A stretch of DNA of 49,404 nucleotides from Okeania sp. KiyG1 (GTDB lineage Bacteria; Cyanobacteriota; Cyanobacteriia; Cyanobacteriales; Microcoleaceae). Shown one piece after another: positions 6,912-36,013 of the stretch. The notes beneath the pieces are model-generated. The model was not told the DNA's origin and did not search any database. It was given only the letters and a program-made list of their open reading frames with translations. The position numbers and the translations under genes were made by a program. The first letter of the stretch is position 1; every line of letters starts with the position of its first letter. The stretch lies in assembly GCF_014132355.1 (NCBI RefSeq), contig NZ_BLZO01000107.1, positions 1 through 49,404 on the forward strand, written 5' to 3'.

Positions 6912-7967
6912 ATGAACTTAACTATAACAAACTTAACTGATTACGACATCGGCGACTTAATACATGAGAGCGAGCGTACTGTCGTCTATCGCGCAGTGGC
7001 TAAAGCAAATGCTCAACCAGTGGCGATCAAACTGATGGGCAATCAGTTTCCTTCCTTTTATGAATTAGTCCAGTTTCGCAACCAATACACCATTGCTAGC
7101 AATCTGTCTTTTGAGGGTATTGTCAAACCATTAGCTCTCTTTAGTTATCAGAATGGCTATGCCTTAATTATGCCAGATTTTGGTGGCATTTCTTTAGGTG
7201 AATATTATCAAAATTTACCACCCCGCGAAGCCAAAGACATATCTCTATTTTTAAACATCGCTATTGAGATAGCAGAAATTATCTATCAATTGCACCAAAA
7301 TCGCATTATTCATAAAGATATTAAACCCGCAAATATACTCATTAATCCCGAAACTAAACAAGTTAAAATTATTGACTTTAGTATTTCTACCTTACTGCCA
7401 AAAGAAACTCAAACCATTCAAACACCCAATGTGTTAGAAGGAACTTTAGCCTACATCTCACCAGAGCAAACCGGAAGGATGAATCGAGGAATAGACTATC
7501 GTAGCGACTTCTATTGTCTAGGGGTAAGTTTATATCAGTTATTAAGTGGAGAATTACCATTTACCAGTGGCGACGCAATGGAATTAGTACATTGTCATAT
7601 ATCCAAACAACCTCCACCATTAAAGGCAGAAATACCGGAAGTGTTGTCAGATATAGTGATGAAATTAATGGCCAAAAATGCCGAAGACCGCTATCAGAGT
7701 GCTTTGGGGTTAAAGTTTGACTTGGAAAAATGTCTGTCTCAATGGGAGGAGGCAGGGAAAATTGAGACTTTTGAGTTGGGAGAGCGGGATGTGAGCGATC
7801 GCTTCCTCATTCCCGAAAAGCTCTATGGAAGGGAAACAGAAGTTCAGGCTTTGCTTGATGCCTTTGAACGAGTGGCCAATCCCCCCCTAACCCCCCTTAG
7901 TAAGGGGGAGAAGAATCCCCTAACCCCCTTAGTAAGGGGGAGAAGAGTCCCCCCTAACCCCCTTTAG
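6912..7967 (+). CDS. Hybrid kinase paralogue, N-terminal Ser/Thr kinase part
   Basis: First fragment (351 aa) of a second hybrid kinase, very similar to the gene at 702. It contains the whole kinase domain: K40 in VAIKLM, HKD with D136, and DFS. It lacks the repeat insertion of its neighbour, so its loop (HISKQPPPLKAEIPE) shows the ancestral state. The frame closes at TAG 7965-7967, inside a tandem run of four CCCCTAACCCCCTTAGTAAG-type units. The second unit is 32 bp instead of 36 bp, which pushes translation out of frame with the downstream part at 8020. As it stands, this would be a free-standing kinase domain with a Pro/Lys/Gly tail. One indel in the C or G runs would rejoin it to the rest. 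Confidence 0.85.
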   Translation: MNLTITNLTDYDIGDLIHESERTVVYRAVAKANAQPVAIKLMGNQFPSFYELVQFRNQYTIASNLSFEGIVKPLALFSYQNGYALIMPDFGGISLGEYYQNLPPREAKDISLFLNIAIEIAEIIYQLHQNRIIHKDIKPANILINPETKQVKIIDFSISTLLPKETQTIQTPNVLEGTLAYISPEQTGRMNRGIDYRSDFYCLGVSLYQLLSGELPFTSGDAMELVHCHISKQPPPLKAEIPEVLSDIVMKLMAKNAEDRYQSALGLKFDLEKCLSQWEEAGKIETFELGERDVSDRFLIPEKLYGRETEVQALLDAFERVANPPLTPLSKGEKNPLTPLVRGRRVPPNPL

Positions 7968-8014
7968 TAAGGGGGGAGAAGAATCCCCCCTAACCCCCCT
8001 TAGTAAGGGGGGGA
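7878..8014 (+). repeat. Tandem palindromic linker repeat that breaks the frame
   Basis: Four consecutive units of the form AAT-C(n)-TAA-C(n)-TTAGTAAG(n)-AGAAG start at 7878, 7914, 7946 and 7982, with lengths 36, 32, 36 and about 32. Each unit can fold (CCCCC... with ...GGGGG). The 32-bp second unit changes the reading frame. The paralogous linker (about 1991-2020) contains a single degenerate unit, so the array expanded at one ancestral site. Homopolymer runs of 5-7 C or G make it prone to slippage, and also to sequencing error. Confidence 0.85.
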
Positions 8015-8019
8015 CAGAA

Positions 8020-11000
8020 ATGATGCTCGTAGCTGGCTTTTCCGGCATCGGGAAAACCGCCGTCGTCAACGAGATACACAAACCCATTACCCGGCAGCAC
8101 GGCTACTTCATCAAAGGCAAATTCGACCAATTCAACCGTAATGTTCCCTTCTCCGCATTCGCCCAAGCCTTTCGTCAACTGATAGGACAACTACTCGGTG
8201 AATCTGACAACAAATTAGAAATATGGAAAGAGAAGCTATTAGAAGCTCTAGGAGAAAATGGACAAGTCATCATTAGTCTAATCCCAGAAGTTGCCAACAT
8301 TATTGGTAAACAACCTCCAGTCGCCGAACTATCAGGCAGCGAGAATCAGAATCGTTTTAACCTACTATTTAAAAAATTCGTCCAAGTCTTTACCAGCGCG
8401 CAACACCCCCTAACGATTTTTCTAGACGACTTGCAGTGGGCTGATTCTGCCTCATTAAACCTGTTAAAGCACCTGATGGAACCATCAGAAGTCGAAACAG
8501 AGTCTGGATACCTACTGATTTTAGGAGCTTATCGCGACAACGAAGTCTCCCCTGCTCACTTGCTCATCCAGACATTAAACGACATTGCCAAACAAAGCAC
8601 CCCCATCAACACCTTAACCCTCCAGCCCCTCGGTGAAGGGGACATCACGCGCTTGACCGCCGAGACTCTGTTGTGTTCCGAGGATATTGCTGCGCCACTA
8701 GCCAAGCTAGTGTATCAAAAAACTCAGGGAAATCCATTCTTCACCACACAGTTTTTGCTGGGACTGCACCAGGACCACCACATCACCCTGAACGCAGAAG
8801 CCGGTTATTGGCAATGCGACCTAACCCAAGTGAAAAAACTGTCACTGACTGATGATGTGGTAACATTTATGGTCAGTCGTTTGCAGAAATTGCCAGGCAG
8901 CACCCAAGACCTTTTGAAGCTGGCGGCCTTCATTGGCAACCGCTTTGACTTGGAAACGTTATGCATTGCCTGTCAACAAGGGAGGGAAGATGTCGCGACG
9001 AACTTGTGGTCAGCCCTGCAAGAGGGGTTAATTGTTCCAGAAAGCGAAACCTACAAGTTTTTCCAGGGCGAATCTGAATCGGCTAAATCAGCCAAAAATA
9101 TTACGGTTGAGTATCGTTTTCTCCATGATCGTGTTCAACAGGCTGCTTACTCATTAATTCCTGACGAGGAAAAACCGGCTGTTCACTATCGAATTGGATT
9201 ATATTTCCTCGAGAACTTCTCGGAGGAAGAACAAGAGGAGGCACTGTTTGCCATTGTTAATCATTTAAACTTTGGTCAAAGCTTACTCACGGAGAAAAGC
9301 GAGCAGAAGAGACTGGCAGAACTTAACCTCAGAGTCGGCAAAAAGGCTCTGTCTTCAGTGGCCTACAAAGCGGCGATCGAGTACCTGGAAACTGGTATTA
9401 AATTGCTGGAGTCAGAGACTTGGAGCAGTGAATACAATCTGTTTTTCGAGCTGTACAAAGGTTTGTGCGAAGCTTATTTGGCAGATGCTGAGTATGGCAA
9501 GCTGGAAGATGCTATTGCCATAGCTCTGAATAATATTAGCGACTCCGTAGACCGCATCGAATTTTACATCCTTGAAATCGTCAAGTTTGTACTAGAAGGT
9601 AATTGTGAAAAGTCTATAGAAGTAGGATTAACTGGGCTGAATGAGCTGGGAATTGATGTTGACACGGAAAACTTGCCCGAGTTAATCAATTCTGAGTTTT
9701 CTATGATTGAGCAACAGATGGAGAATCGTTCTATATCGTCGCTTTTAGAGTTGCCCACTCAAGTGGATAGAATAACTGCGGCCAAAATAAAGCTACTGGT
9801 TACTTTAAATTCACCAACATACATACTTGGTAATTTCGACCTTTCTAATTTTGTCTCTTTAAAAGCTACTTCACTATCTGTAAAATATGGCAATATTGAT
9901 GAGTCGATCAAAGCTTATGCCAGTTATGGACTGTTCTTAAATGTAATCAAAGCCGAGTACCAGCGTGCGTATGAGTTTGGCAAGCTGGCGTTAGACTTGA
10001 GCTACACACTCAACAGTAAGGTGGAGCGATGCAAAGCTGGGCTGTTTCTGGGTGCTGCGCTTCATGTGTGGGCAAAGCCAATTCAAGGCGCCGCACAGGT
10101 GAACTACGACTGTTTTCTGGCGGGTACTGAAGCGGGCGAAGTTCAGTTCAGCGGTTACAATTTGTACTGCAATATATTAAACCGCCTGTTTCAGGGAGAA
10201 TATCTGAGTAGCGTTGCTGAGGATATTAATAACTACTGGTTAGTCGCAGAGAAAAGCAAAGACGTTCTTTTGCTGTGTGCTTTGGCTGCCACCAGAATTT
10301 TTGTCCAAAAACTTTGTTTGTCTGCCGATGAATATGAGCAGTCAGCATCACGACTTGAAGCAGAAGCGATTATTCATGAGAATAAAGAATTAGCCTGGAC
10401 CTCAGTCTGCTTCCATTATTGTCTCAATATCCATTCTTGCTATGTGTTGGAATCGTTTGAGGAGAGTTTTGAATATTTTAAAAAGGCAGGGACTATTCTG
10501 GATGCTGCCGCAGGATATACAACAATTAGTAACTATTACTACTATGCTTCTTTAGTTTTACTCCAGTTATATTCCAGGCGATCGCCACAAGAGGAAGTAG
10601 AGCTATTAGAACAGGTGAAAACGAAGCAAAAACAGCTAAAAGCATGGACTGAAAGTTGTCCGGAAAACTTTTTGCACAAATACTTGCTCGTCGAAGCAGA
10701 ACGCCACCGTGTTTTAGACGATAAAGGTTCAGCGATCGAAATATACGATCGCGCTATTTCTGGAGCCAAAGAAAATGGATTCACTCAAGAAGAAGCTCTC
10801 GCCAACGAACTCGCAGCAAAATTCTACCTTGAATGGGGCAAAGAAAAAATTGCCCAAACCTACATGGTAGAAGCTTACTACTGTTATGCCCGGTGGGGTG
10901 CAAAAGCCAAAACCGACCACCTCGAAGCCACCTATCCCCAACTCCTCACTCCCATCCTCCAACAACCAAAATCGACTCTAACTCTCAAGACTAAAACCAC

Positions 11001-12477
11001 CCTCACCTCTGATCGAACCCTTCGCACCACCAGTAATGCCAATACCTCCATTCTCGATATTTCTAGTGCCATTAAAGCCTCTCAAGCGCTCTCTGGAGAA
11101 ATCGAACTGGAAGTCTTGCTCTCCCAACTGATGAAAATTGTCCTCGAAAATGCAGGAGCTGACAAAGCTGCATTAATCTTGAATAATGACGGAACTTGGG
11201 AAATTGTTTCTCAGTGCATAGAAGAAACCTGTCAGTTATGCCTAACCTCCCTCGACAATAGCGATCGTCTCCCTGCCAGCATTGTTCGTACCGTCCAACG
11301 CACTAAAAAACCTATTATTCTCAACCACGGGGTTCAAGACACCCACTTGGCATCGGATACTTATCTCATACAACAGCAACCCAAAAGCTTATTCTGTAAC
11401 CCTATTCTCAATCAAGGTCAGCTCATTGGTATTTTGTACCTCGAAAATAATCTCAGTGCGGGAGCTTTTAGCAGCGAACGGGTGGAACTGCTGAATTTAG
11501 TCTGTTCCCAGGCAGCGATTTCTATTGAAAATGCCCGCTTATACCAACAATCTCAAAATTATGCTAAAAAACTTGAAGGTACAGTGCAAGAGCTTCAGCA
11601 GACACAGCAGCAATTGCAGAAATCTTTTGAGGAGTTGAAACAAGCACAACTGCAACTTGTGCAAAGTGAAAAAATGGCTTCTATTGGTCAGTTAACTGCC
11701 GGAATTGCTCACGAAATCAACAATCCATTAGGTTTTATTTCTGGGAATTTCACTTTTACTGACTATTATATTCAAGACCTAATTGAACTGTTGAAACTTT
11801 ATCAAGCAGAATTGCCTTCTCCTAGTGAAAAAATTCTGAATAAAGTTAAGGAGATGGAGTTAGATTATCTCATAGAAGACTTACCCAAAAATATTGATTC
11901 GATCAAACAAGGTATCAAGCGGATTACTGAAATTAGCACATCAATGAGAATCTTTTCTCGTGCCGATACTGTAGCTAAAGTTCCTTTTAATCTCCACGAA
12001 GGAATAGATAGCACTTTATTAATTCTCAAACACCGACTCAAAGCTGATGAAAAACGCCCAGAAATAGAAGTGGTGAAAAACTATGGTAATTTATCGGAAG
12101 TTAATTGCTATCCAGGACAATTAAATCAAGTATTTATGAATCTAATTGCTAATGCTATTGATGCTTTAGAAGAAAATAATCTAGGTAAGACTTTTGAGGA
12201 GATTGAAACTGCACCAAATCAGATTATTCTGACTACAGAAATTGACAGAGAAAAACAACAGATAATCATCCGCATTCGAGATAATGGCATGGGCATGAGT
12301 AAGGAAGTCAAAGAAAAAGTTTTTGAACATTTATTTACGACTAAAGGAGTAGGAAAAGGTACGGGTTTAGGTTTATCAATTTCCCGGCAAATTGTAGAAG
12401 AAAAACATGGAGGTCAAATTGTTTTGACTTCAGAATTAGGAGAAGGCACAGAATTTGCTATTGTTCTGCCTCTTTAG
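8020..12477 (+). CDS. Hybrid kinase paralogue, ATPase-GAF-histidine kinase part
   Basis: Second fragment (1,485 aa) of the split hybrid kinase. It begins at ATG 8020 exactly where the paralogue reads MMLVAGFSGIGKT. The P-loop is at residues 6-13, followed by FLDDLQWAD Walker B, a long TPR-like helical region, a GAF domain, a coiled coil rich in Gln/Leu before the H-box, AHEINNP (H1231), and HATPase motifs DNGMGMS and GKGTGLGLS. The frame is already open from about 7936, so a frameshift within the upstream repeat would give one protein of about 1,840 aa. Whether 8020 is used as an independent start is unknown, and no convincing Shine-Dalgarno is visible. The coding region is otherwise intact, arguing against old decay. 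Confidence 0.88.
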   Translation: MMLVAGFSGIGKTAVVNEIHKPITRQHGYFIKGKFDQFNRNVPFSAFAQAFRQLIGQLLGESDNKLEIWKEKLLEALGENGQVIISLIPEVANIIGKQPPVAELSGSENQNRFNLLFKKFVQVFTSAQHPLTIFLDDLQWADSASLNLLKHLMEPSEVETESGYLLILGAYRDNEVSPAHLLIQTLNDIAKQSTPINTLTLQPLGEGDITRLTAETLLCSEDIAAPLAKLVYQKTQGNPFFTTQFLLGLHQDHHITLNAEAGYWQCDLTQVKKLSLTDDVVTFMVSRLQKLPGSTQDLLKLAAFIGNRFDLETLCIACQQGREDVATNLWSALQEGLIVPESETYKFFQGESESAKSAKNITVEYRFLHDRVQQAAYSLIPDEEKPAVHYRIGLYFLENFSEEEQEEALFAIVNHLNFGQSLLTEKSEQKRLAELNLRVGKKALSSVAYKAAIEYLETGIKLLESETWSSEYNLFFELYKGLCEAYLADAEYGKLEDAIAIALNNISDSVDRIEFYILEIVKFVLEGNCEKSIEVGLTGLNELGIDVDTENLPELINSEFSMIEQQMENRSISSLLELPTQVDRITAAKIKLLVTLNSPTYILGNFDLSNFVSLKATSLSVKYGNIDESIKAYASYGLFLNVIKAEYQRAYEFGKLALDLSYTLNSKVERCKAGLFLGAALHVWAKPIQGAAQVNYDCFLAGTEAGEVQFSGYNLYCNILNRLFQGEYLSSVAEDINNYWLVAEKSKDVLLLCALAATRIFVQKLCLSADEYEQSASRLEAEAIIHENKELAWTSVCFHYCLNIHSCYVLESFEESFEYFKKAGTILDAAAGYTTISNYYYYASLVLLQLYSRRSPQEEVELLEQVKTKQKQLKAWTESCPENFLHKYLLVEAERHRVLDDKGSAIEIYDRAISGAKENGFTQEEALANELAAKFYLEWGKEKIAQTYMVEAYYCYARWGAKAKTDHLEATYPQLLTPILQQPKSTLTLKTKTTLTSDRTLRTTSNANTSILDISSAIKASQALSGEIELEVLLSQLMKIVLENAGADKAALILNNDGTWEIVSQCIEETCQLCLTSLDNSDRLPASIVRTVQRTKKPIILNHGVQDTHLASDTYLIQQQPKSLFCNPILNQGQLIGILYLENNLSAGAFSSERVELLNLVCSQAAISIENARLYQQSQNYAKKLEGTVQELQQTQQQLQKSFEELKQAQLQLVQSEKMASIGQLTAGIAHEINNPLGFISGNFTFTDYYIQDLIELLKLYQAELPSPSEKILNKVKEMELDYLIEDLPKNIDSIKQGIKRITEISTSMRIFSRADTVAKVPFNLHEGIDSTLLILKHRLKADEKRPEIEVVKNYGNLSEVNCYPGQLNQVFMNLIANAIDALEENNLGKTFEEIETAPNQIILTTEIDREKQQIIIRIRDNGMGMSKEVKEKVFEHLFTTKGVGKGTGLGLSISRQIVEEKHGGQIVLTSELGEGTEFAIVLPL

Positions 12478-19458: not shown

Positions 19459-20202
19459 ATGGGAGTAGTTTATATAGGCGATCGCGCCGTCGGCAAAACT
19501 CATTTAGCCTTAGAATTGGCCAATCCCCAAGGAAATTATGTCCAGGTTTCTTTGGTCAATCAAAATTATCAAAATCTCCAGGCAAATTTACTTAATTTAG
19601 ATGGCACTGCTAAACCTACTCAAAGTATTGAAAAACGTTCTTTGGATGTGAAAGTTAGACTTTCTACTGGTATTAGCAAAATTCCTGTAGATTGGATAGA
19701 TTCTCCTGGGGAATTATTTCGTAGGTCATGGCAATCTGAGCATATTAATGAATGGCAAGATTTTAAAGAAACGGTGGGTAAAAGTGAAGGGATTTTTTTA
19801 ATTGTTCCTCCCTATCGAGAAATTTTACAGCCTCATATTAACCCAGAAAATTATATTACTCAGCAACAATGGTGCAATAGATTTAATCGTTGGACTGACT
19901 TTTTTATTTATGATTGTCCTCAAGCTCGACGTATTGTAATATGTCTGAATAAAGCCGATCTAATTAATTGTAATCTTGAGCAAGAAATTGCTAAATTGGC
20001 TTATTTACCTCATGGTTCTACTATGAATTGGCTGCAACGTCATAATTATGTGGTTAATAGTTATTTTTTACCACTAAAATCACAGTTAGAACAAATAAAT
20101 AGCAGTCGTTCAGGTTTGTCTGTCCGGTGTTTTATTACCAGTATTTATCACCGTAGTTTATTAGAATTACCTTGGATTTATTTAGCTAGTTATTTAGCTT
20201 GA
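19459..20202 (+). CDS. P-loop GTPase-like protein A
   Basis: 247 aa. Walker A/G1 GDRAVGKT (7-14), G3 DSPGE (81-85) and G4 NKAD (164-167) support a TRAFAC-type GTPase fold; the guanine-specific NKxD motif is complete. It has no membrane segment. It is the first of three GTPase-like genes on this strand (also 21272 and 22358), followed by a membrane-anchored partner. This resembles the multi-GTPase modules predicted as conflict or signalling systems in multicellular bacteria (double-GTPase systems described by the Aravind group); family membership is inference. The start at ATG 19459 gives Walker A right at the N terminus, as usual for such proteins. No clear Shine-Dalgarno is visible. Confidence 0.8.
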   Translation: MGVVYIGDRAVGKTHLALELANPQGNYVQVSLVNQNYQNLQANLLNLDGTAKPTQSIEKRSLDVKVRLSTGISKIPVDWIDSPGELFRRSWQSEHINEWQDFKETVGKSEGIFLIVPPYREILQPHINPENYITQQQWCNRFNRWTDFFIYDCPQARRIVICLNKADLINCNLEQEIAKLAYLPHGSTMNWLQRHNYVVNSYFLPLKSQLEQINSSRSGLSVRCFITSIYHRSLLELPWIYLASYLA

Positions 20203-20344
20203 AAGAACGAATAAGGAAGAGAGAAGAAGGAAGAGGGAAGGAAGAAGAAAGTTGGGTAGTTATTTGATATTTCTCATACTCATACTCAATTTGTTGAGAT
20301 TTTTATTATCAAGTTGGTGAGTAATCTCAAAGTATAAAATACGG

Positions 20345-20962
20345 TTAGTCATGGCAGTGTAATATAACAGCTAAATAATCTGGGAAATCCGATTTTATTT
20401 GCCGAACTTTCTCTCTCCAATTTATCTCATCCTCACTCATCACTTCTATTCCCTTTATTTCTTTGTTAACAAAAGCTTCCAGTCCAGCCTCTTCTCCAAG
20501 TTCGTGCCACTTACCATCTGGAGTAACTACAGCATAAGGTATAAATTCAATTTCCTTAACTGCAAACGTATGAATATCGGGAACAAAAAAACGCGATGTC
20601 ATACCTTCCATATCTGCAAATTTGTACCAGTCCCATTTGCCATCTGGATTAAGAGTTGTCATTTTGTATTCTCCGTTTTCATCTACTCCATCTATTAGCT
20701 CATCAAACCAATCTAATTCAAACTTAGCTAATACTTCTAAATTGTTGGCTTCTACCTCCCAACCTTTTGCTATTTTATTAATTTCTTCTTCAGACATACT
20801 CTTAAGCTCATTGATTTTTTTAACTAATTCTTCTCGATCTAGATACTCCTTGTATGGTTCTACTTCTATATAATAATCGTAAGGTAGTAGGAGTTTTTCT
20901 ACCTTGCTTTTTACATTGACAGTAGATGGGTGAATTATAATTAAAGCTGTCAAAAAAGTCAT
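20345..20962 (-). CDS. Hypothetical protein, possible Rhs immunity protein
   Basis: 205 aa, acidic, soluble, on the opposite strand to the surrounding GTPase genes. I see NPDGKWDWYKF (about 105-115), VVTPDGKWHELGE (about 145-157) and the C-terminal DYLAVILHCHD. These resemble a family of hypothetical proteins common on phages and mobile elements. Directly upstream on the same strand (21059 to about 21216) is a fragment of an Rhs/YD-repeat protein, so this gene sits where an immunity gene follows an Rhs toxin. The toxin part is missing and the immunity role is inference. The start is ATG 20962. It separates GTPase A from GTPase B and looks like an insertion into that cluster. Confidence 0.65.
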   Translation of the reverse strand: MTFLTALIIIHPSTVNVKSKVEKLLLPYDYYIEVEPYKEYLDREELVKKINELKSMSEEEINKIAKGWEVEANNLEVLAKFELDWFDELIDGVDENGEYKMTTLNPDGKWDWYKFADMEGMTSRFFVPDIHTFAVKEIEFIPYAVVTPDGKWHELGEEAGLEAFVNKEIKGIEVMSEDEINWREKVRQIKSDFPDYLAVILHCHD

Positions 20963-21058
20963 TTTACCATCAAAATTTATAGTGTTTTTGGTCTAAATTT
21001 TTATTAAACTGCTCTCCTAATAATAAATAATCATTCTTTATACTACCACTCTCATAAA

Positions 21059-21216
21059 TCAATTCTCCAAACACACCTTATAAGTATAACTAGCAACAAC
21101 TTTCCCAGTCTCGTCCTCATTCTCCTCAAGAACTTGAGTATAAGAACGATTAGCATCTACCAAATTAAGTAGTCTTCGTCCCATTAATACTCGAACTAAC
21201 CCGAATATTCCTTTTA
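21059..21216 (-). pseudogene. Rhs/YD-repeat protein fragment
   Basis: Translation of the minus strand, ending at TGA 21061-21059, reads LVDANRSYTQVLEE, then GKVVASYTYK. This is the typical Rhs core pattern (VDxNxxYAQVLEE...G.LVASYTYG). Only about 50 residues remain. No long frame lies upstream, and the stop follows where a toxin domain would begin. It is too short for a gene and is best read as the relic of an Rhs element that brought in the downstream gene at 20345. Confidence 0.6.
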
Positions 21217-21271
21217 TCAAACAAGCAAGTTAAATTAATCAATAGTAATAGTAAAGATATAAGTCAAAAAA

Positions 21272-22087
21272 ATGGGGAATATTTGTATTATTGGACCTAC
21301 GGGTGCGGGAAAGACTACTTATCTAGCAGGATTAGCTTATTGGCCAGAAAAAAGTCACCCAAATTTTCAAATTACAGCCATTACTAATGATGCTCAAAAT
21401 TTAGCTAATAAAGCTGAAACAATTATTCTCAATGGTGCTTCTTTAGAACCCACTATTATTGATGGAATAAAAATCAAAAGTTTCTATGATTTACCTTTGT
21501 ATTCTTTTCACATAGAAATCAAACGTTGGTGGCAACAAAAACCAGAAGAAATTAATCTAGTAGTGCGAGATTATCCAGGAGAGATTTTTAATGAATTACA
21601 AGGAGGTATTTCTAATCCTTTACATCAAGAATTTATCGATGAATGCCTAATCAAAGATAATGTCGGCTGTCTAATTTTACTCCACAAATGGGAGCCAGGA
21701 AGCGACATATTTTATAGTAATGTGATGGAGAGATTTATTAATTTAATAGATGAGCGCGACCGCTCCCAAGATTTACGTCTAGCTATAGCAATGAGTAAAT
21801 GTGAAAGAGGAGAAATTTGGCCTGGTCGTCTTGACCCAGAATTAGACATATTTAAAGTACATTTACCAAGAACAACCAGTATTTTACAAAAGCGTATTCC
21901 TCAACAAAATTTACGGTTTTATGCTATATCTACTTTTGGCGTTCTACAACGAAATGACCCCCGTCCAAATCGTACTGATGAATTAGGAAGTCCCCACTCA
22001 ATATTACGGGAACCTTTGAAATGGAAACCTTATGGTATAGTTTCACCCCTGTATTGGTTAAGTCAAGGCAAAACAATTAATAATTAA
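21272..22087 (+). CDS. P-loop GTPase-like protein B
   Basis: 271 aa. G1 GPTGAGKT (8-15), G3 DYPGE (100-104) and a variant G4 SKCE (175-178) replacing NKxD. The C terminus contains KWKPYGIVSPLYWLSQGK. The same ending (KWRPFGLVSPIYW) and order of motifs occur in the next gene (22358), so B and C are paralogues with a distinct C-terminal signature, while A (19459) is more distant. It is predicted soluble, with nucleotide-dependent switching likely but untested. It lies 309 bp downstream of the minus-strand insertion and is separated from gene C by a nested repeat. Confidence 0.8.
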   Translation: MGNICIIGPTGAGKTTYLAGLAYWPEKSHPNFQITAITNDAQNLANKAETIILNGASLEPTIIDGIKIKSFYDLPLYSFHIEIKRWWQQKPEEINLVVRDYPGEIFNELQGGISNPLHQEFIDECLIKDNVGCLILLHKWEPGSDIFYSNVMERFINLIDERDRSQDLRLAIAMSKCERGEIWPGRLDPELDIFKVHLPRTTSILQKRIPQQNLRFYAISTFGVLQRNDPRPNRTDELGSPHSILREPLKWKPYGIVSPLYWLSQGKTINN

Positions 22088-22352
22088 TAATTAATAATTA
22101 ATAATTACCTCTCCTTGAAAATAAGAGGATTGACTCAAAGGAAAATTTTTATTTATTGTCCCCTTAAAAGGGGAGGCTTTAAGAGGTTGTCTGAGAACCC
22201 ATTTGCTACATCCAAGCCCCCTAAATCCCCCAAGTTTGGGGGACTTTTAGAAGCAAATTGACTCTTTTTCCCCCCAAAGTTGGGGGGCTAGGGAGCAAAA
22301 TTCAGTATCAAAAAACTTTTCAGATATTCTCTAAACCACAATTTTTCGGTAA
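22079..22352 (-). repeat. Dispersed element with a nested insertion
   Basis: A short-form copy of the ACCGAAAAATT element in reverse orientation (TTACCTCTCCTTG... to ...AATTTTTCGGT at 22341-22350). It is interrupted between GGCTTTA and TAAACCACA by another element (about 22183-22331). The inner element has imperfect inverted ends (AGAGGTTGTCTGAGAA / TTTTCAGATATTCTCT) and contains CCCCCAAGTTTGGGGG and CCCCCCAAAGTTGGGGGG palindromes. Confidence 0.7.
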
Positions 22353-22357
22353 AAAAA

Positions 22358-23257
22358 ATGTTTAACTCCCTATTAAAACCCCGAATTAATGAGAATTTAA
22401 AAGAGGAAAATTGTTCTGGCATTTTACGAGTAATAGGCGATCGTGCTGCTGGTAAAACTACTTATATGGCAGCTTTGGCTAGGTGGCCAAATGCTGATTT
22501 TTCTAGTCCTGTTGAATTAGTTACTCCAGCAAATAAAGATGGAGAATTTTTGATTAAGCAGGCACAAAATTTTATAGAGTCAGGGCTACAAATTGAACAA
22601 ACTCGTCTAGCTAATGATGTGTTAGAAATTAAGGATTATAGTTTAAGAATTACTCTCAAACCAGAAGATAATTTTAGGCGTTCTAATACTGTTTTGAATT
22701 TAGATATTAGTTGCAAAGATTATTCTGGAGAATTTTTTAGCGATGTACTTCAGCAAACAGATTCTCAATTACTTCGAGACTATTTAAATGATTGTTTTCC
22801 AGCCACGGGAATTATGTTAATGATTGATGGTACAACTCATCGTAAAGACCTAGAATATGCTAGAGGAGTAGATCAACTTTTAGTAGCATTAGCAGGCCGG
22901 GATTTGTTTAGTGAAAAACGGCGTATTGCTTTGGTTTTAACTAAGTGTGAATTAGCTGATTTATGGGTAAATAGAAATAGACCAAAATTTTTAGCCGAGG
23001 CACGGTTTCCTACTATTTTTGAAAGATTAGAATCTTGGCAAAATTTGGGAATGGGTAGTGTGGAATATTTTACAACTTCTGCTTTTGGTGTGACAGGAAA
23101 TAAATATTCTAAACCAAATTCTCAGCAAATTTATCGGGGTCGTGGTGGGGTAGCATCAGTATTAGAAGACTCGAAAAAATGGCGACCTTTTGGCTTAGTT
23201 TCTCCTATATATTGGATTTGTACAGGTAAACGTAATTCACAGTTAGATAATGATTAA
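22358..23257 (+). CDS. P-loop GTPase-like protein C
   Basis: 299 aa. G1 GDRAAGKT (27-34), G3 DYSGE (121-125) and a variant G4 TKCE (195-198), with C-terminal KWRPFGLVSPIYWICTGK. It is a paralogue of gene B, with a 26-residue N-terminal extension. The change from N to S/T and from D to E at G4 in both B and C suggests relaxed guanine specificity or dependence on a partner. By position and pairing it belongs with A and B and with the membrane-anchored protein encoded from 23663. It is soluble, with no extra domain visible. Confidence 0.8.
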   Translation: MFNSLLKPRINENLKEENCSGILRVIGDRAAGKTTYMAALARWPNADFSSPVELVTPANKDGEFLIKQAQNFIESGLQIEQTRLANDVLEIKDYSLRITLKPEDNFRRSNTVLNLDISCKDYSGEFFSDVLQQTDSQLLRDYLNDCFPATGIMLMIDGTTHRKDLEYARGVDQLLVALAGRDLFSEKRRIALVLTKCELADLWVNRNRPKFLAEARFPTIFERLESWQNLGMGSVEYFTTSAFGVTGNKYSKPNSQQIYRGRGGVASVLEDSKKWRPFGLVSPIYWICTGKRNSQLDND

Positions 23258-23662
23258 GGAGTCAGGAGGGGAAGAAGGAAGAAGGAAGAAGGAAGAAGGA
23301 AGAAGGAAGAAGGAAGAAGGAAGAGGAGGAAAAGAAGAAAATTTTTTGTTCGTAGTAGGGCTTTAGCCCATGAAATATCTATCTTATAATTGATAAATGT
23401 TTGCTACAAATAGCTAGGGTATTTCTTAGAAGTAAGGAGTGAGAACTCAGAAGTCAGAATGAATAGCTTCAATGCCAGTTTTTAGACCGGAAATTCTCTT
23501 TTTTGTCAAATAATAGGTTTCCTGTAAAGTCTTTTAGTCATACTTATTATTCGTAAAATTCTTTTTGAAATTGGTATTAGGGCTAAAGCCCTACTACAAG
23601 CTTTAATTATAACTATTCAACCGGACATAATATAAGACCTAAAACCTTCCCCAAATCAGCAA
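23258..23662. repeat. Intergenic repeats before the broken partner gene
   Basis: GAAGGAA tandem repeats (about 23273-23325) are followed by an inverted pair GTAGTAGGGCTTTAGCCC (23352-23369) / GGGCTAAAGCCCTACTAC (23580-23597) around about 210 bp of unassigned sequence. An AACCGGACATAATATAA repeat end lies at about 23618-23634. No gene is seen. Confidence 0.65.
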
Positions 23663-24118
23663 ATGGAAACTATTGAAATTCACGAGTTCAGCACAGGTAT
23701 AATTCCCGAAATATTACCCGATGGTAAATGGATTTCTCGGGGATTTAAAGTAGGGGAATATATGAACTTAACCTTGCCTCAAGTTCCCCATTCTGTAGGA
23801 AGAGCAATTGCTAATAAAGGCTTTGAAGTAGCCAAAGACCGTAATAGTCAAGAACCTACTTTTGTCGGGCGAGTTGTCTTAAGTATAAGTAATGAAGAAC
23901 CAGATTATTCAGTAGTTGCTGTAGTAACTACTGGGCAAGACGAGTATGGGCGTTCTACTTCTTTTTATCGTTATTTTCTCTGTTCCGGTAAAGATAATAT
24001 TTGGCAAATATTAGACTGGATAAATACTCAACAACAACAAGGTATTAATCCAGTATTTAATCCATCTGAAACTAAAGAAGTTGGGAAACCAAATCAACAT
24101 AAAATTACTAAAAATTAG
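23663..24118 (+). CDS. N-terminal part of the GTPase-cluster partner protein
   Basis: 151 aa. ATG 23663 begins a domain with DGKWISRGF, GEYMNLTLPQVPHSVGRAI, FVGRVVLSI and DEYGRSTSFYRYFL. I do not recognise a named family, but its place after paired GTPases recalls the GTPase-associated (GAP1-type) proteins of double-GTPase systems. The frame stops at TAG 24116-24118. The next frame is open from 24112 and reads LPTEWQKWLSSQVIPVIIPTELSD, which looks like the natural continuation. This is therefore probably the first piece of one protein of about 720 aa ending at 25839. Confidence 0.65.
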   Translation: METIEIHEFSTGIIPEILPDGKWISRGFKVGEYMNLTLPQVPHSVGRAIANKGFEVAKDRNSQEPTFVGRVVLSISNEEPDYSVVAVVTTGQDEYGRSTSFYRYFLCSGKDNIWQILDWINTQQQQGINPVFNPSETKEVGKPNQHKITKN

Positions 24119-24216
24119 AAATAAATTTACCCACAGAATGGCAAAAATGGCTGAGTAGTCAAGTTATACCTGTAATAATCCCCACTGAATTATCTGACTT
24201 ACAAATTATTAATAAA

Positions 24217-24675
24217 ATGGCTGAAATTAAAGCCAACGATCTACCTATATCATGGGCTTATAATGTCGAAGCAATTGAACGACCAGAACAATTTATTATT
24301 ATTCATCCTGCTAATACTGAAGTAGAAGCAAGTCTGTCACAAACACAGACAAAGATGATGAAAAATCCCAGGGAAAATATCTCAACAAATATAGATGAAG
24401 CAGCTATAGAAACAGCAATTAAAGGATTAATTAGTGGTTCTCAAATCAAACAAGAATGGGTAGAAAATTTAATTTTAAAATTACAGAATGGTCAAGTTAC
24501 ATCAAAATATTTAAACAACCTATTTGATAATCTGGGAGCAGGCAATGCTGTTAAACAAGGAAATGCTAATGCTCAAATGGTTAGGTTATTAACTTTAAGA
24601 GCAATTTTTATTCCCGAAACTTTACCAGAATATCTAAATTGGTTAAATATTACTGGAGATGGAAAAAGAAGATGA
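24217..24675 (+). CDS. Middle part of the GTPase-cluster partner protein
   Basis: 152 aa from ATG 24217, but the frame is open from 24112 and the homologous segment probably starts there, so this ATG is likely internal (NKMAEIKANDLPISW). It contains WAYNVEAIERPEQFIIIHP, then a low-complexity link and a helical region. It ends at TGA 24673-24675. The same frame then continues open to 25839. An alternative frame across the stop reads LLEMEKEDEKQKYL, which looks more like natural helix, so two nearby indels rather than a simple stop mutation may be the cause. Confidence 0.55.
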   Translation: MAEIKANDLPISWAYNVEAIERPEQFIIIHPANTEVEASLSQTQTKMMKNPRENISTNIDEAAIETAIKGLISGSQIKQEWVENLILKLQNGQVTSKYLNNLFDNLGAGNAVKQGNANAQMVRLLTLRAIFIPETLPEYLNWLNITGDGKRR

Positions 24676-24753
24676 GAAACAAAAATATCTCTAAAATTAC
24701 AATCTCAACTGAAAAATTATCAAAAATCATTAGATCCATTAATTGTACTAGGA

Positions 24754-25839
24754 ATGAATTACGCCTTCTATCAAATATTAGGAGGAAAAATATCTGTTCC
24801 TGCTTTCTGTTGGCTATTAAAAACTAAAAATAGTTTATGGTCAACCTATTCTACTATAATCAAACAACAAGTTAGCCACGATTTAGAATATTTGGGTAAC
24901 AATTTATTAAACACAAGTATTGACCAAGAAATAGAGCAATTAATTTATGGAGATACTATTTGGAAGAAACTCATTTCCCACTTAAAATCTAGTCGCGAAC
25001 GCTGCAATTATTATCAACCTTTTGCTGAGTTATTTTCTCAACTACCCGATTATGAGTTAGCAGCTTATTTTCATCAACTCAGTCATGGAAAAGTACCAAG
25101 ATCGATATTTACATCAGCATTTCCGAGATTAAAGTCAATTTATGAAATCAGAATTTTTGGGTTAAATGTTCAGCAAGAATTAACTGTTTCCGACCGAATA
25201 GTTATCCTCATAAAAAAGTATGGCTTGCCAGTAGCAACAACTTGTTTATTAATACTTTCTCATGGTTTATTTTTTGCTTTAGGATATCAGATAAGTAAGT
25301 TTAATACTGGCACTATTGCTGAACCGAAAAAAAATGAACATTCCCCTTTTTCAGAAGAACAATTAACTGATAGTTCAACAAAAAATGTTAGCGTAATTTC
25401 CTCAGTCAAAATGGAAAAAGCACTAGACAATTTTCCCACTACTAGCAGTGTAATTCGAGAAATAGTCCGGGAACTAGAGACAGAAATATTATCTCAAAAT
25501 TCAACAGTAGTTACATCAGAAGAAGCACGCTTAAAAATTATTCAAGCAATTAAGCAAATTCTAGAAAATGATATAAAACTTCAGTATTCTGGGGCGATAG
25601 AAGATGAACTTTTAGGAGAACCAGAGAAATATTTAGAAGCACAAAAACAATGGATAGAAGCAATTTATTCTTATCAGCAAAAGTTTTTTAGTAGTGGTTT
25701 TGGCTACATAGAACCAGGTAAACAAACAGCAGGTAGATTGAAGTGTAATGTGGCTGATTTATTAGGTATTCAATTACAACAAAGACCTCAATATTGTGGA
25801 AGAAAATTAGATAAGGAGTCAGGAGTCAGGAGTCAGTAG
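24754..25839 (+). CDS. C-terminal, membrane-anchored part of the GTPase-cluster partner
   Basis: 361 aa from ATG 24754, although the frame is open from 24676 (KLQSQLKNYQKSLDPL) and this ATG is probably internal. A helical domain (1-150) precedes one membrane segment (about 156-182, VATTCLLILSHGLFFALGYQ). A second, probably extracytoplasmic, helical domain follows (about 215-345). The tail (GVRSQ) comes from a GGAGTCAGGAGTCAG repeat that supplies the stop. The cluster thus has three soluble GTPase-like proteins and one single-pass membrane protein. The function is unknown, and the gene is broken into three pieces in this sequence. Confidence 0.6.
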   Translation: MNYAFYQILGGKISVPAFCWLLKTKNSLWSTYSTIIKQQVSHDLEYLGNNLLNTSIDQEIEQLIYGDTIWKKLISHLKSSRERCNYYQPFAELFSQLPDYELAAYFHQLSHGKVPRSIFTSAFPRLKSIYEIRIFGLNVQQELTVSDRIVILIKKYGLPVATTCLLILSHGLFFALGYQISKFNTGTIAEPKKNEHSPFSEEQLTDSSTKNVSVISSVKMEKALDNFPTTSSVIREIVRELETEILSQNSTVVTSEEARLKIIQAIKQILENDIKLQYSGAIEDELLGEPEKYLEAQKQWIEAIYSYQQKFFSSGFGYIEPGKQTAGRLKCNVADLLGIQLQQRPQYCGRKLDKESGVRSQ

Positions 25840-28343: not shown

Positions 28344-28498
28344 GTAATTTCAGTTATCAGTTATCAGTTATCAGTTATCAGTAATATCAAATCCATTTAA
28401 TTAGGTATAAAGCAAAATTTTTCGGTCTCCATAATTACTAAATTTTGTCTCATTCCTATTTATTCGGTACTGTCAGTTCTTATTTAGTAGGTTGGGTT

Positions 28499-29773
28499 GA
28501 GGAACGAAACCCAAAAACTGTGAGGAACGAAACCCAAAAACTGTGAGGAACGAAACCCAAAAACTGTGAGGAACGAAACCAAACAACTGTGAGGAACGAA
28601 ACCCAAAAACTGTGAGGAACGAAACCCAAAAACTGTGAGGAACGAAACCAAACAACTGTGAGGAACGAAACCCAAAAACTATGAGGAACGAAACCCAAAA
28701 ACTATGAGGAACGAAACCAAAAACTATGAGGAACGAAACCAAACAACTGTGAGGAACGAAACCAAAAACTATGAGGAACGAAACCCAAAAACTATGAGGA
28801 ACGAAACCCAAAAACTATGAGGAACGAAACCCAAAAACTGTGAGGAACGAAACCAAAAACTGTGAGGAACGAAACCCAAAAACTGTGAGGAACGAAACCC
28901 AAAAACTGTGAGGAACGAAACCCAAAAACTGTGAGGAACGAAACCCAAAAACTATGAGGAACGAAACCCAAAAACTGTGAGGAACGAAACCAAACAACTG
29001 TGAGGAACGAAACCCAAAAACTGTGAGGAACGAAACCCAAAAACTGTGAGGAACGAAACCAAAAACTGTGAGGAACGAAACCCAAAAACTATGAGGAACG
29101 AAACCAAAAACTGTGAGGAACGAAACCCAAAAACTATGAGGAACGAAACCCAAAAACTGTGAGGAACGAAACCAAACAACTGTGAGGAACGAAACCCAAA
29201 AACTGTGAGGAACGAAACCAAAAACTGTGAGGAACGAAACCAAAAACTGTGAGGAACGAAACCAAAAACTGTGAGGAACGAAACCCAAAAACTGTGAGGA
29301 ACGAAACCAAAAACTGTGAGGAACGAAACCAAAAACTGTGAGGAACGAAACCAAACAACTGTGAGGAACGAAACCAAACAACTGTGAGGAACGAAACCAA
29401 ACAACTGTGAGGAACGAAACCAAACAACTGTGAGGAACGAAACCAAACAACTGTGAGGAACGAAACCAAACAACTGTGAGGAACGAAACCAAACAACTGT
29501 GAGGAACGAAACCAAACAACTGTGAGGAACGAAACCAAACAACTGTGAGGAACGAAACCCAAAAACTATGAGGAACGAAACCCAAAAACTATGAGGAACG
29601 AAACCAAACAACTATGAGGAACGAAACCAAAAACTATGAGGAACGAAACCCAAAAACTGTGAGGAACGAAACCAAACAACTATGAGGAACGAAACCCAAA
29701 AACTGTGAGGAACGAAACCCAAAAACTGTGAGGAACGAAACCCAAAAACTGTGAGGAACGAAACCAAACAACT
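28499..29773 (+). repeat. Minisatellite of about 56 units of 22/23 bp
   Basis: Uninterrupted head-to-tail array. The units are GAGGAACGAAACCCAAAAACTGT (23 bp, written as GAGGAACGAAACCC + AAAAACTGT), a variant with CCAAACAACTGT, a 22-bp form with CCAAAAACTGT, and versions ending CTATG. There are no spacers, so it is not a CRISPR array. The left flank is GTAGGTTGGGTT and the right flank GTTGGGTTGCGCTACCGCTTA + ACCCAACCTAC, the arms of a common cyanobacterial palindromic repeat, so the array probably grew from its interior. Mixed 22/23-bp units keep all minus-strand frames open by chance of composition. Confidence 0.95.
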
Positions 29774-34925: not shown

Positions 34926-35369
34926 ATGTTTAAATGTATTACAGTTAAAAATTTTAGATGTTTTGAAGAAATTACTATTGATAATATCGAACGAGTTAAT
35001 TTAATTGGAGGTATCAATAATGTTGGCAAAACAGCTCTACTAGAAGCAATTTTTTTGTTAACAAGTTTAAATTCTATAGAAATTCCGTTTCAATTAAATT
35101 TTGATAGAGGAGTATTCCAGCAACAAACTTTTGATGTAGAAGAAGTTTGTGAATGGTTATTCTATAATAAACAAGTAAGTAAAGCCATTGAAATTAAAAT
35201 AGTAAACGAAAATGATGAAGATAACGAATTAAAATTGAGTTTAGATAAAGCATCAAGCCCAAGATTGTTCCCTTTGCATTTAAGGTCAAATAGTATAAAA
35301 ACTCTCAAGGATTTAAAACTAGAATTTAAAAAAATGATCAAAAAATCTTGGGATTTACAACATTTTTAA
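34926..35369 (+). CDS. AAA ATPase, N-terminal part (frameshifted)
   Basis: 147 aa, start of a RecF/SMC-like ATPase of the OLD/AAA_15 class. It opens with the KNFRCFEEITIDNIERVNLI pattern and a Walker A GINNVGKT ending at T36. The frame drifts out at an A-run near 35340-35345; after LEFKKMIKK the continuation ILGFTTFLIPDQEQ is in another frame. With one base change it would join the next frame to give about 360 aa, normal for such ATPases. It is paired with a TOPRIM-like gene (36013), as in ATPase/TOPRIM defence modules. Confidence 0.8.
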   Translation: MFKCITVKNFRCFEEITIDNIERVNLIGGINNVGKTALLEAIFLLTSLNSIEIPFQLNFDRGVFQQQTFDVEEVCEWLFYNKQVSKAIEIKIVNENDEDNELKLSLDKASSPRLFPLHLRSNSIKTLKDLKLEFKKMIKKSWDLQHF

Positions 35370-36013
35370 TACCAGATCAAGAACAAAAAAAAATAAAGAT
35401 AGAAATTCAAGAAGACGAAGAACAGAAAGCTAGAGAAATAGAAGTTTTTCCTCCTAGTGTTTTTCTCAGTAGCCGTTTAAGAGTCTCACCAACCGAAGAT
35501 GCAGAAATATTCAGTAATTTTGAAGCCATAAATCAACAAAATGAAATTATAGAAATCTTAAAAATAATAGAACCAAGATTAAAACGTTTAGCAGTTTTAG
35601 TCACCGGAGGAATTCCAATGATTCATGGAGATATTGGAGGAGATTATTTAATTCCTGTTTCATTAATGGGAGAAGGAATGGAAAGATTATTATCTATTAT
35701 TTTATCGATTATGAATGCACCAGAAGGAACTGTATTAATTGATGAAATTGAAAATGGCATACATCACTCAATTATGGAAAAAGTTTGGCAGTCTATAGCT
35801 GTAGCAACTAGAATATCTAACACTCAACTTTTTGCTACTACTCATAGTTATGAATGTATTAATGCTGCTCATCAAGCATTTTCTAACTCCGAATTATATG
35901 ACTTTCGTTATTTCAGACTAGAGAGAGAAAAAGAGACTAATATTATCAAGAGTTTAGTTTATGACAAAGATAATATTGAGACTTCTTTAGAACTTAACCT
36001 GGAGATGCGTTAA
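35348..36013 (+). CDS. AAA ATPase, C-terminal part (frameshifted)
   Basis: 221 aa if a TTG at 35348 were used, but more likely the continuation of the preceding frame. It contains the signature-like SLMGEGMERLLSI, Walker B GTVLIDEIENGIHHS and the switch His in FATTHSYE, so the two pieces together hold every ATPase motif. Its stop TAA (36011-36013) overlaps the ATG of the next gene by one base (TAATG), meaning tight translational coupling with the DUF3226 protein. Confidence 0.8.
   Translation: MGFTTFLIPDQEQKKIKIEIQEDEEQKAREIEVFPPSVFLSSRLRVSPTEDAEIFSNFEAINQQNEIIEILKIIEPRLKRLAVLVTGGIPMIHGDIGGDYLIPVSLMGEGMERLLSIILSIMNAPEGTVLIDEIENGIHHSIMEKVWQSIAVATRISNTQLFATTHSYECINAAHQAFSNSELYDFRYFRLEREKETNIIKSLVYDKDNIETSLELNLEMR

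Follow-up and report, generated by a model that had tools for sequence, protein, structure and literature searches.

DO-GTPase/GAP1 systems, as presented in the sections of Kaur et al. (2020; PMC7159879) used here, contain one or two GTPases, and a conserved glutamate of the Walker B/G3 motif marks the DO-GTPase family. According to the same sections, killing or arrest of the cell is proposed as the output of GAP1-N2 systems, the kinase theme of these systems is restricted to actinobacteria, and DO-GTPase/GAP1 systems are nearly completely absent from cyanobacteria. Here we describe a cyanobacterial locus carried by a stretch of 49,404 nucleotides (nt) from Okeania sp. KiyG1 (contig NZ_BLZO01000107.1 of assembly GCF_014132355.1), the whole of which is called the window. 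Three consecutive GTPase genes, A, B and C, are followed by the gene of a membrane-anchored partner, P. This looks like a divergent three-GTPase counterpart of the described systems without a recognisable GAP1, and we infer that it most likely acts as a switch, anchored in the membrane, that relays a signal from the envelope to phospho-signalling components. Its features have the following window positions, with protein lengths in amino acids (aa):

19459..20202, plus strand: GTPase A, 247 aa, with GDRAVGKT, DSPGE and NKAD; the operon's first conserved gene
21272..22087, plus strand: GTPase B, 271 aa, with GPTGAGKT, DYPGE and SKCE, and the tail KWKPYGIVSPLYW
22358..23257, plus strand: GTPase C, 299 aa, with GDRAAGKT, DYSGE and TKCE, and the tail KWRPFGLVSPIYW; passes Pfam DO-GTPase2
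23663..25839, plus strand: partner gene P, broken here by a frameshift near 24.1 kilobases (kb) and a TGA stop at 24673-24675
23663..24118, plus strand: P piece 1, 151 aa, conserved N-terminal domain (IHEFSTGI ... YRYF)
24217..24675, plus strand: P piece 2, middle domain, called from the first ATG, with a frame reaching back to ~24118
24754..25839, plus strand: P piece 3, called from the first ATG, with the membrane helix and the fast-evolving C-terminal part
25217..25290, plus strand: predicted single membrane helix of P, approximate, from sequence hydropathy

The three P-loop proteins in a row, with the G1, G3 and G4 motifs that the initial annotation ascribed to them, are all present, and the motifs are conserved in relatives aligned from chosen subsets of the fetched loci. 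The GKT of the P-loop is kept in all 23 A, 25 B and 30 C sequences, and the glutamate of G3 (DxxGE) is invariant in the same sets (23/23, 25/25 and 30/30). The G4 aspartate is found in 23/23 A relatives, and a glutamate replaces it in 25/25 B and 29/30 C. Because this glutamate is conserved among the B and C relatives, the unusual G4 (SKCE/TKCE) is a family trait and no accident. The tail of C follows the consensus W-x-P-[FY]...P-[IL]-Y-W, and B has the same tail with a few changes. B and C are close paralogues (profile-profile E 6e-56) and A is a distant one (E 2.8e-11). In a midpoint-rooted tree of 87 sequences, the A-type and B-type proteins form separate groups, each holding the matching GTPase from two-GTPase loci, and C branches at the base of the B group. 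Mapping the four labels onto this tree takes 6 changes, versus 43.0 in shuffles. Across five same-genus (Okeania) genomes, A is 96-97% and C 94-97% identical, while B is 98.5% identical to the nearest congener copy. The ratio of non-synonymous to synonymous substitution rates (dN/dS) of 0.07-0.27 for the GTPases indicates purifying selection. Alignments of the window to the five Okeania relatives skip the ~1 kb between A and B (20252-21232), and a 205-aa open reading frame (ORF) on its minus strand (20345-20962) has no Pfam match over the cut-off. Two C-like GTPases elsewhere (G007:C41:16051-16938 and G075:C5:40214-41086) lie within open frames of 1225 and 1029 aa and are possible fusions.

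The link to DO-GTPases and the TRAFAC class, proposed from the window's letters, is supported by Pfam and by the Walker B/G3 glutamate. Window C reaches 35.2 bits against Pfam DO-GTPase2 (PF19993, cut-off 27), a pass that concerns window C itself, whereas window A (17.1 bits) and window B (20.7 bits) stay below the cut-off of 27 for DO-GTPase1 (PF19975). Scans of the A and B relatives with DO-GTPase1 gave matches at E<=0.1 for 25/25 B (best 1.2e-10) and 20/23 A (best 2e-6), mostly weak ones. The Walker B/G3 glutamate of the DO-GTPase family is present in A, B and C. Roc is matched weakly by 17/23 A members (best 2.6e-4), and several AAA families are matched weakly by B. No partner of the GAP1 type is recognised: P holds the downstream position, but GAP1 families are absent from the Pfam matches of two overlapping sets of P proteins (17 members at E<=0.1 and 42 at E<=0.01). 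P as a GAP1 is rejected on this basis, a comparison made at the Pfam level that a very diverged GAP1 could escape. GAP1-N2 is found in 0/98 cyanobacterial genomes (positive control matched) and GAP1-N1 in 0/292 (no positive control matched). Among the downstream proteins scanned, a part of those in the loci, none has a Pfam match to a GASH or FNIII component. Paralogous GTPases adjoining a partner, a trait of DO-GTPase/GAP1 systems, are found here as three paralogues, A-B-C, and then P. A, B and C are DO-GTPase-like, and the system resembles the DO-GTPase class in its anatomy; full DO-GTPase/GAP1 membership is not claimed because no GAP1 is recognised.

The gene order recurs in most of the loci recovered. 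Searching 84,980 species genomes with the C profile yielded 72 loci, every one cyanobacterial by its record title; since they were picked out by two short peptide patterns of C, distant forms escape, and the count speaks for the scan and not for other phyla beyond it. Where 1.8 kb or more of upstream sequence is available (65 loci), A-B-C lie in order in 60, order being scored when B is no farther than 1.5 kb and A no farther than 6 kb from C and all three share a strand; the exceptions are L106, L107, L109 (no A), L168 and L169. P comes within 1.2 kb after C in 59 of the 63 loci with at least 0.8 kb downstream (exceptions L104, L110, L158 and L168), and the median gaps along A-B-C-P are 26, 2 and 5 nt. 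More than one P-like ORF, in some cases a fragment, is present in 15 of the 50 loci with at least 5 kb downstream. Among 292 cyanobacterial genomes including the window's, C or a C-like gene is present in 22 (E<=1e-20) and P in 20 (E<=1e-5). Both are found in 19, and in all 19 they are within ~410 nt of each other; C stands without P in G007, G095 and G263, and P without C in G100. The initial annotation had named homologues living mostly apart as the result that would count against it. They are found together, and a dispersed distribution is rejected given the C-P and A-B-C adjacency in most loci and genomes; the conserved three-GTPase version with a membrane-anchored partner that had been suggested is supported by the neighbourhood survey. 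C occurs in eight of 72,556 plasmid records, and P occurs in those eight too; by their typing, two are conjugative, four mobilizable and two non-mobilizable. By appearance they amount to about five distinct plasmids, as three Tolypothrix/Microchaete records look like one plasmid and two Trichormus records likewise. C is unmatched in 50,697 phage records. The literature searched, which leaves out most subscription papers and supplements, holds no paper on this operon.

The partner itself was misread at first. A "23663 protein" with one central membrane helix had been described, but the 151-aa ORF starting there has no helix, which lies instead in ORF 24754-25839. The ORFs 23663-24118, 24217-24675 and 24754-25839 are one gene, because in five same-genus genomes P runs through as one uninterrupted frame of 714-735 aa; the alternative of three small genes following C is rejected for this reason. 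The partner is a single gene of ~720 aa with a predicted membrane helix, broken here, and not the separate protein first reported. Hydropathy places the start of a helix at residues 510-562 in 49 of 60 P relatives of at least 600 aa, and it is the sole helix in 47. Conservation drops from 0.62 in the N domain to ~0.3 beyond the helix, and dN/dS is 0.38-0.54 for the C-terminal half. PG_binding_1 is matched by 4/17 and 7/42 P proteins (overlapping sets). One of the 17 aligned P proteins matches Uma2 (PF05685, E 3e-5), possibly through an altered C terminus.

In the window, three short deletions in or beside runs of A lead to the frameshift and the stop. Homopolymer runs of at least 6 number 7 in the P of intact relatives, and 7 in total in A, B, C, a Mg transporter and a P-type ATPase, all five of which are full-length open frames in the window. 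Other small gaps in shared genes fall in the last codons of B (versus L101) and near the 5' end of ORF 26889 (versus L099, at the alignment edge); such gaps were placed in alignments to L099 and L101, while L098, L100 and L102 gave counts alone. The breaks may be real decay or assembly error, comparable runs and gaps being too few to separate the two. Two further window genes look split: within 6912-12477 a giant kinase/histidine-kinase gene (at 7967/8020), and within 34926-36013 an ATPase-like gene whose two frames overlap (35348-35369).

Beyond what the initial annotation could see, A-B-C-P makes up just the opening quarter or so of a longer operon. On plasmids of Trichormus, Tolypothrix, Nostoc linckia and Gloeothece, public annotation shows it heading a largely ordered operon of 16-18 genes where complete, with A, B, C and P all named "hypothetical protein". 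P is followed by a multi-helix protein of ~360 aa, a vWA protein with a C-terminal membrane helix, and lipoproteins, some with ARC6-IMS. A beta-lactamase-fold protein, vWA proteins, a 127-aa protein and a soluble vWA protein come next, and then a zinc-ribbon-FHA protein, a PP2C and a kinase; the order is largely fixed, with losses. In 20 chosen stretches of 12-20 kb, P was recognised in 19, the multi-helix and vWA-membrane genes in 18 each, the 127-aa protein in 16, the soluble vWA and the zinc-ribbon-FHA protein in 13 each, and the PP2C and the kinase in 12 each (both together in 11); the beta-lactamase-fold gene was recognised in 4. The multi-helix and vWA-membrane genes are on the same strand in 37 of 46 loci with at least 9 kb downstream. 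The nine others are four window-type Okeania loci (L099-L102) and L117, L132, L154, L156 and L160; in L156 genes of these two types lie on the other strand. The domains assigned by Pfam are VWA, ARC6-IMS (E 1.2e-20), Beta-lactamase2 (E 1.4e-13), PP2C, Pkinase and FHA. On Trichormus plasmid B, the components of the kinase theme, whose kinase is often fused to a zinc ribbon, are present: a Pkinase with TPR and a sub-threshold RanBP-type zinc ribbon, a PP2C and a VWA. Upstream of A, the same plasmid (L172:18629-19615) has a 128-aa gene and a DUF6232 gene, the latter with a sub-threshold match to the cyanobacterial TRADD-N-associated membrane domain. An ORF family occurs in six loci, and its member directly upstream of A in L127 (L127:6826-8367) matches TraG/VirD4-type coupling ATPases.

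A model of the system can be proposed from these parts. It is about an even call whether a cyanobacterial DO-GTPase system has its switch and its sensor in A-B-C-P, as its head. P would cross the inner membrane and keep its N half inside the cell. The outer part of P, together with the lipoproteins and the vWA-membrane protein, would sense a change in the envelope or cell wall, or an invader at the envelope. The N half of P would control an assembly of the GTPases, in which B might pair closely with C, and A might be a third subunit distinct from both. The state of the GTPases would then set the threshold of the kinase/PP2C/FHA/vWA module, which would deliver the response. A broader proposal, that cyanobacteria own a plasmid-mobile, GTPase-centric conflict branch in which a DO-GTPase trio and a transmembrane non-GAP1 sensor replace the GAP1 systems that are reported missing there, is put forward tentatively, at slightly less than even confidence.

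Several results weigh against the switch-and-sensor model. The topology of P is drawn from simple hydropathy alone, and 13 of the 60 P proteins depart from the single-helix pattern (no helix, a shifted one or several). PG_binding_1 is found in a minority of P proteins and is not matched by the window's own P. Searched by sequence against solved structures, P has no significant match; A, C and P give nothing below E 0.2, and B only weak P-loop matches (best E 4.5e-4). In PADLOC 2.0, A, C and P match no family at E<=0.01, and the matches of B all have E>1e-3. The zinc ribbon of the kinase scores under the Pfam cut-off. An FHA-like end of the multi-helix protein was considered and not accepted, the matches being weak only: Pfam in 2/40, and at E 0.012 Ki-67 chains, which we take to be FHA domains, with no profile match to the operon's own FHA protein.

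An accessory anti-invader function, in which P or the lipoproteins would detect phages or plasmids arriving at the envelope and the cell would be killed or arrested through the kinase/effector output, is suggested by analogy and remains doubtful. Its distribution would suit such a role, as the system is patchy (22/292 genomes), has two or more P-like ORFs in part of the loci (15/50, some of them pieces), and is carried by plasmids (8 records, 6 of them mobilizable or conjugative), although these records look like about five distinct plasmids. One Tolypothrix plasmid locus is beside MoxR, GUN4 and SUMF1-type genes, parts of known cyanobacterial conflict systems. The kinase is related to the PD-T4-6 and mad6 kinases of PADLOC; however, that match is generic, A, C and P match no PADLOC model, and neither a nuclease nor a toxin is annotated in the four plasmid operons, many of whose genes are "hypothetical". 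The same sparse distribution and plasmid carriage fit poorly with a housekeeping role, which makes it quite improbable that the system is a regulator of the cell envelope or division, with ARC6-IMS lipoproteins, the beta-lactamase-fold protein and a peptidoglycan-binding part acting on septum or wall and the GTPases as positional switches. The ARC6-like IMS and Beta-lactamase2 domains, with the E-values given above, and PG_binding_1 in some P relatives speak for such a regulator, but the beta-lactamase-fold gene is recognised in just 4/20 stretches.

The window copy raises a question of its own, that of a decaying remnant without function. Its genome, 92% complete, holds the operon in parts. 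In the window-type Okeania loci L099-L102, A-B-C-P are followed by other genes, and in L098 the 127-aa and zinc-ribbon-FHA genes are inverted a few kb downstream. On contig C94 of the window's genome, the multi-helix and vWA-membrane genes lie together at one place, and a lipoprotein, the 127-aa protein, the zinc-ribbon-FHA protein and the kinase at another. The beta-lactamase-fold and membrane vWA genes were not seen at these C94 places, and no genome-wide search for them was made. In the same genome, the soluble vWA has only distant matches (best 26% identity) and the PP2C only domain-length ones (25-36% identity). With P broken, the remaining genes scattered, and A-B-C spacers wider than in most loci, a remnant could be suspected, but we consider it unlikely. 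A and C remain 94-97% identical in five congeners and B 98.5% to the nearest, with the dN/dS of purifying selection (0.07-0.27), and P is intact in the five congeners. The breaks, in or beside A-runs, may be assembly errors or very recent, because the in-frame pieces of P show at least as much constraint as intact P does among congeners. With the operon divided between two or more contigs, a broken P, and no close match to the soluble vWA or the PP2C, the window copy is probably impaired, unless the P breaks are assembly errors. The same genome also has a second, two-GTPase version (G000:C45:19000-38999; L170 2205-11033, minus strand), with A-like and B-like genes, a 1037-aa P-like protein, and multi-helix and vWA-membrane genes. 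Further along the window (28473-29611), overlapping minus-strand ORFs built of a repeated GFVPHSFWVSFLTV-like unit form a tandem repeat array.

A widespread divergent version in cyanobacteria, in which a third GTPase, a membrane partner of its own and a tail of phospho-signalling genes are added, would fill the DO-GTPase gap reported in the sections of Kaur et al. (2020) cited above. Compact annotated plasmid operons, such as plasmid B of Trichormus variabilis ATCC 29413, are places where the role of the GTPases can be tested. As far as those sections describe it, the kinase-PP2C-vWA theme of DO-GTPase/GAP1-N2 systems shares with the present system TRAFAC GTPases that are paralogous and carry the G3/Walker B glutamate, a large partner encoded immediately downstream, components linked to the membrane, mobile neighbourhoods, and a kinase (here with a weakly scoring zinc ribbon), a PP2C and a standalone vWA. 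Unlike that theme, three GTPases are present here, with no zinc ribbon found on them. The partner has its own membrane helix and no GAP1 match; lipoproteins, a beta-lactamase-fold protein and FHA components are added; and all 72 loci are cyanobacterial. Compared with the PF19993 and PF19975 families, C exceeds the cut-off of the former, and B and most A members match the latter, whereas window A and B stay under the cut-offs and B and C carry Glu for the G4 Asp. The VMAP and MoxR-vWA ternary systems (Kaur et al., 2020) are likewise multi-gene, vWA-containing and cyanobacterial. The Tolypothrix locus that adjoins MoxR and GUN4 genes adds to this likeness, but no MoxR is annotated inside the four plasmid operons, where GTPases take the place of the switch. 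The TerY phosphorylation triad consists of a vWA, a PP2C and a kinase. The same set is found here, but joined to GTPases, FHA and envelope proteins.

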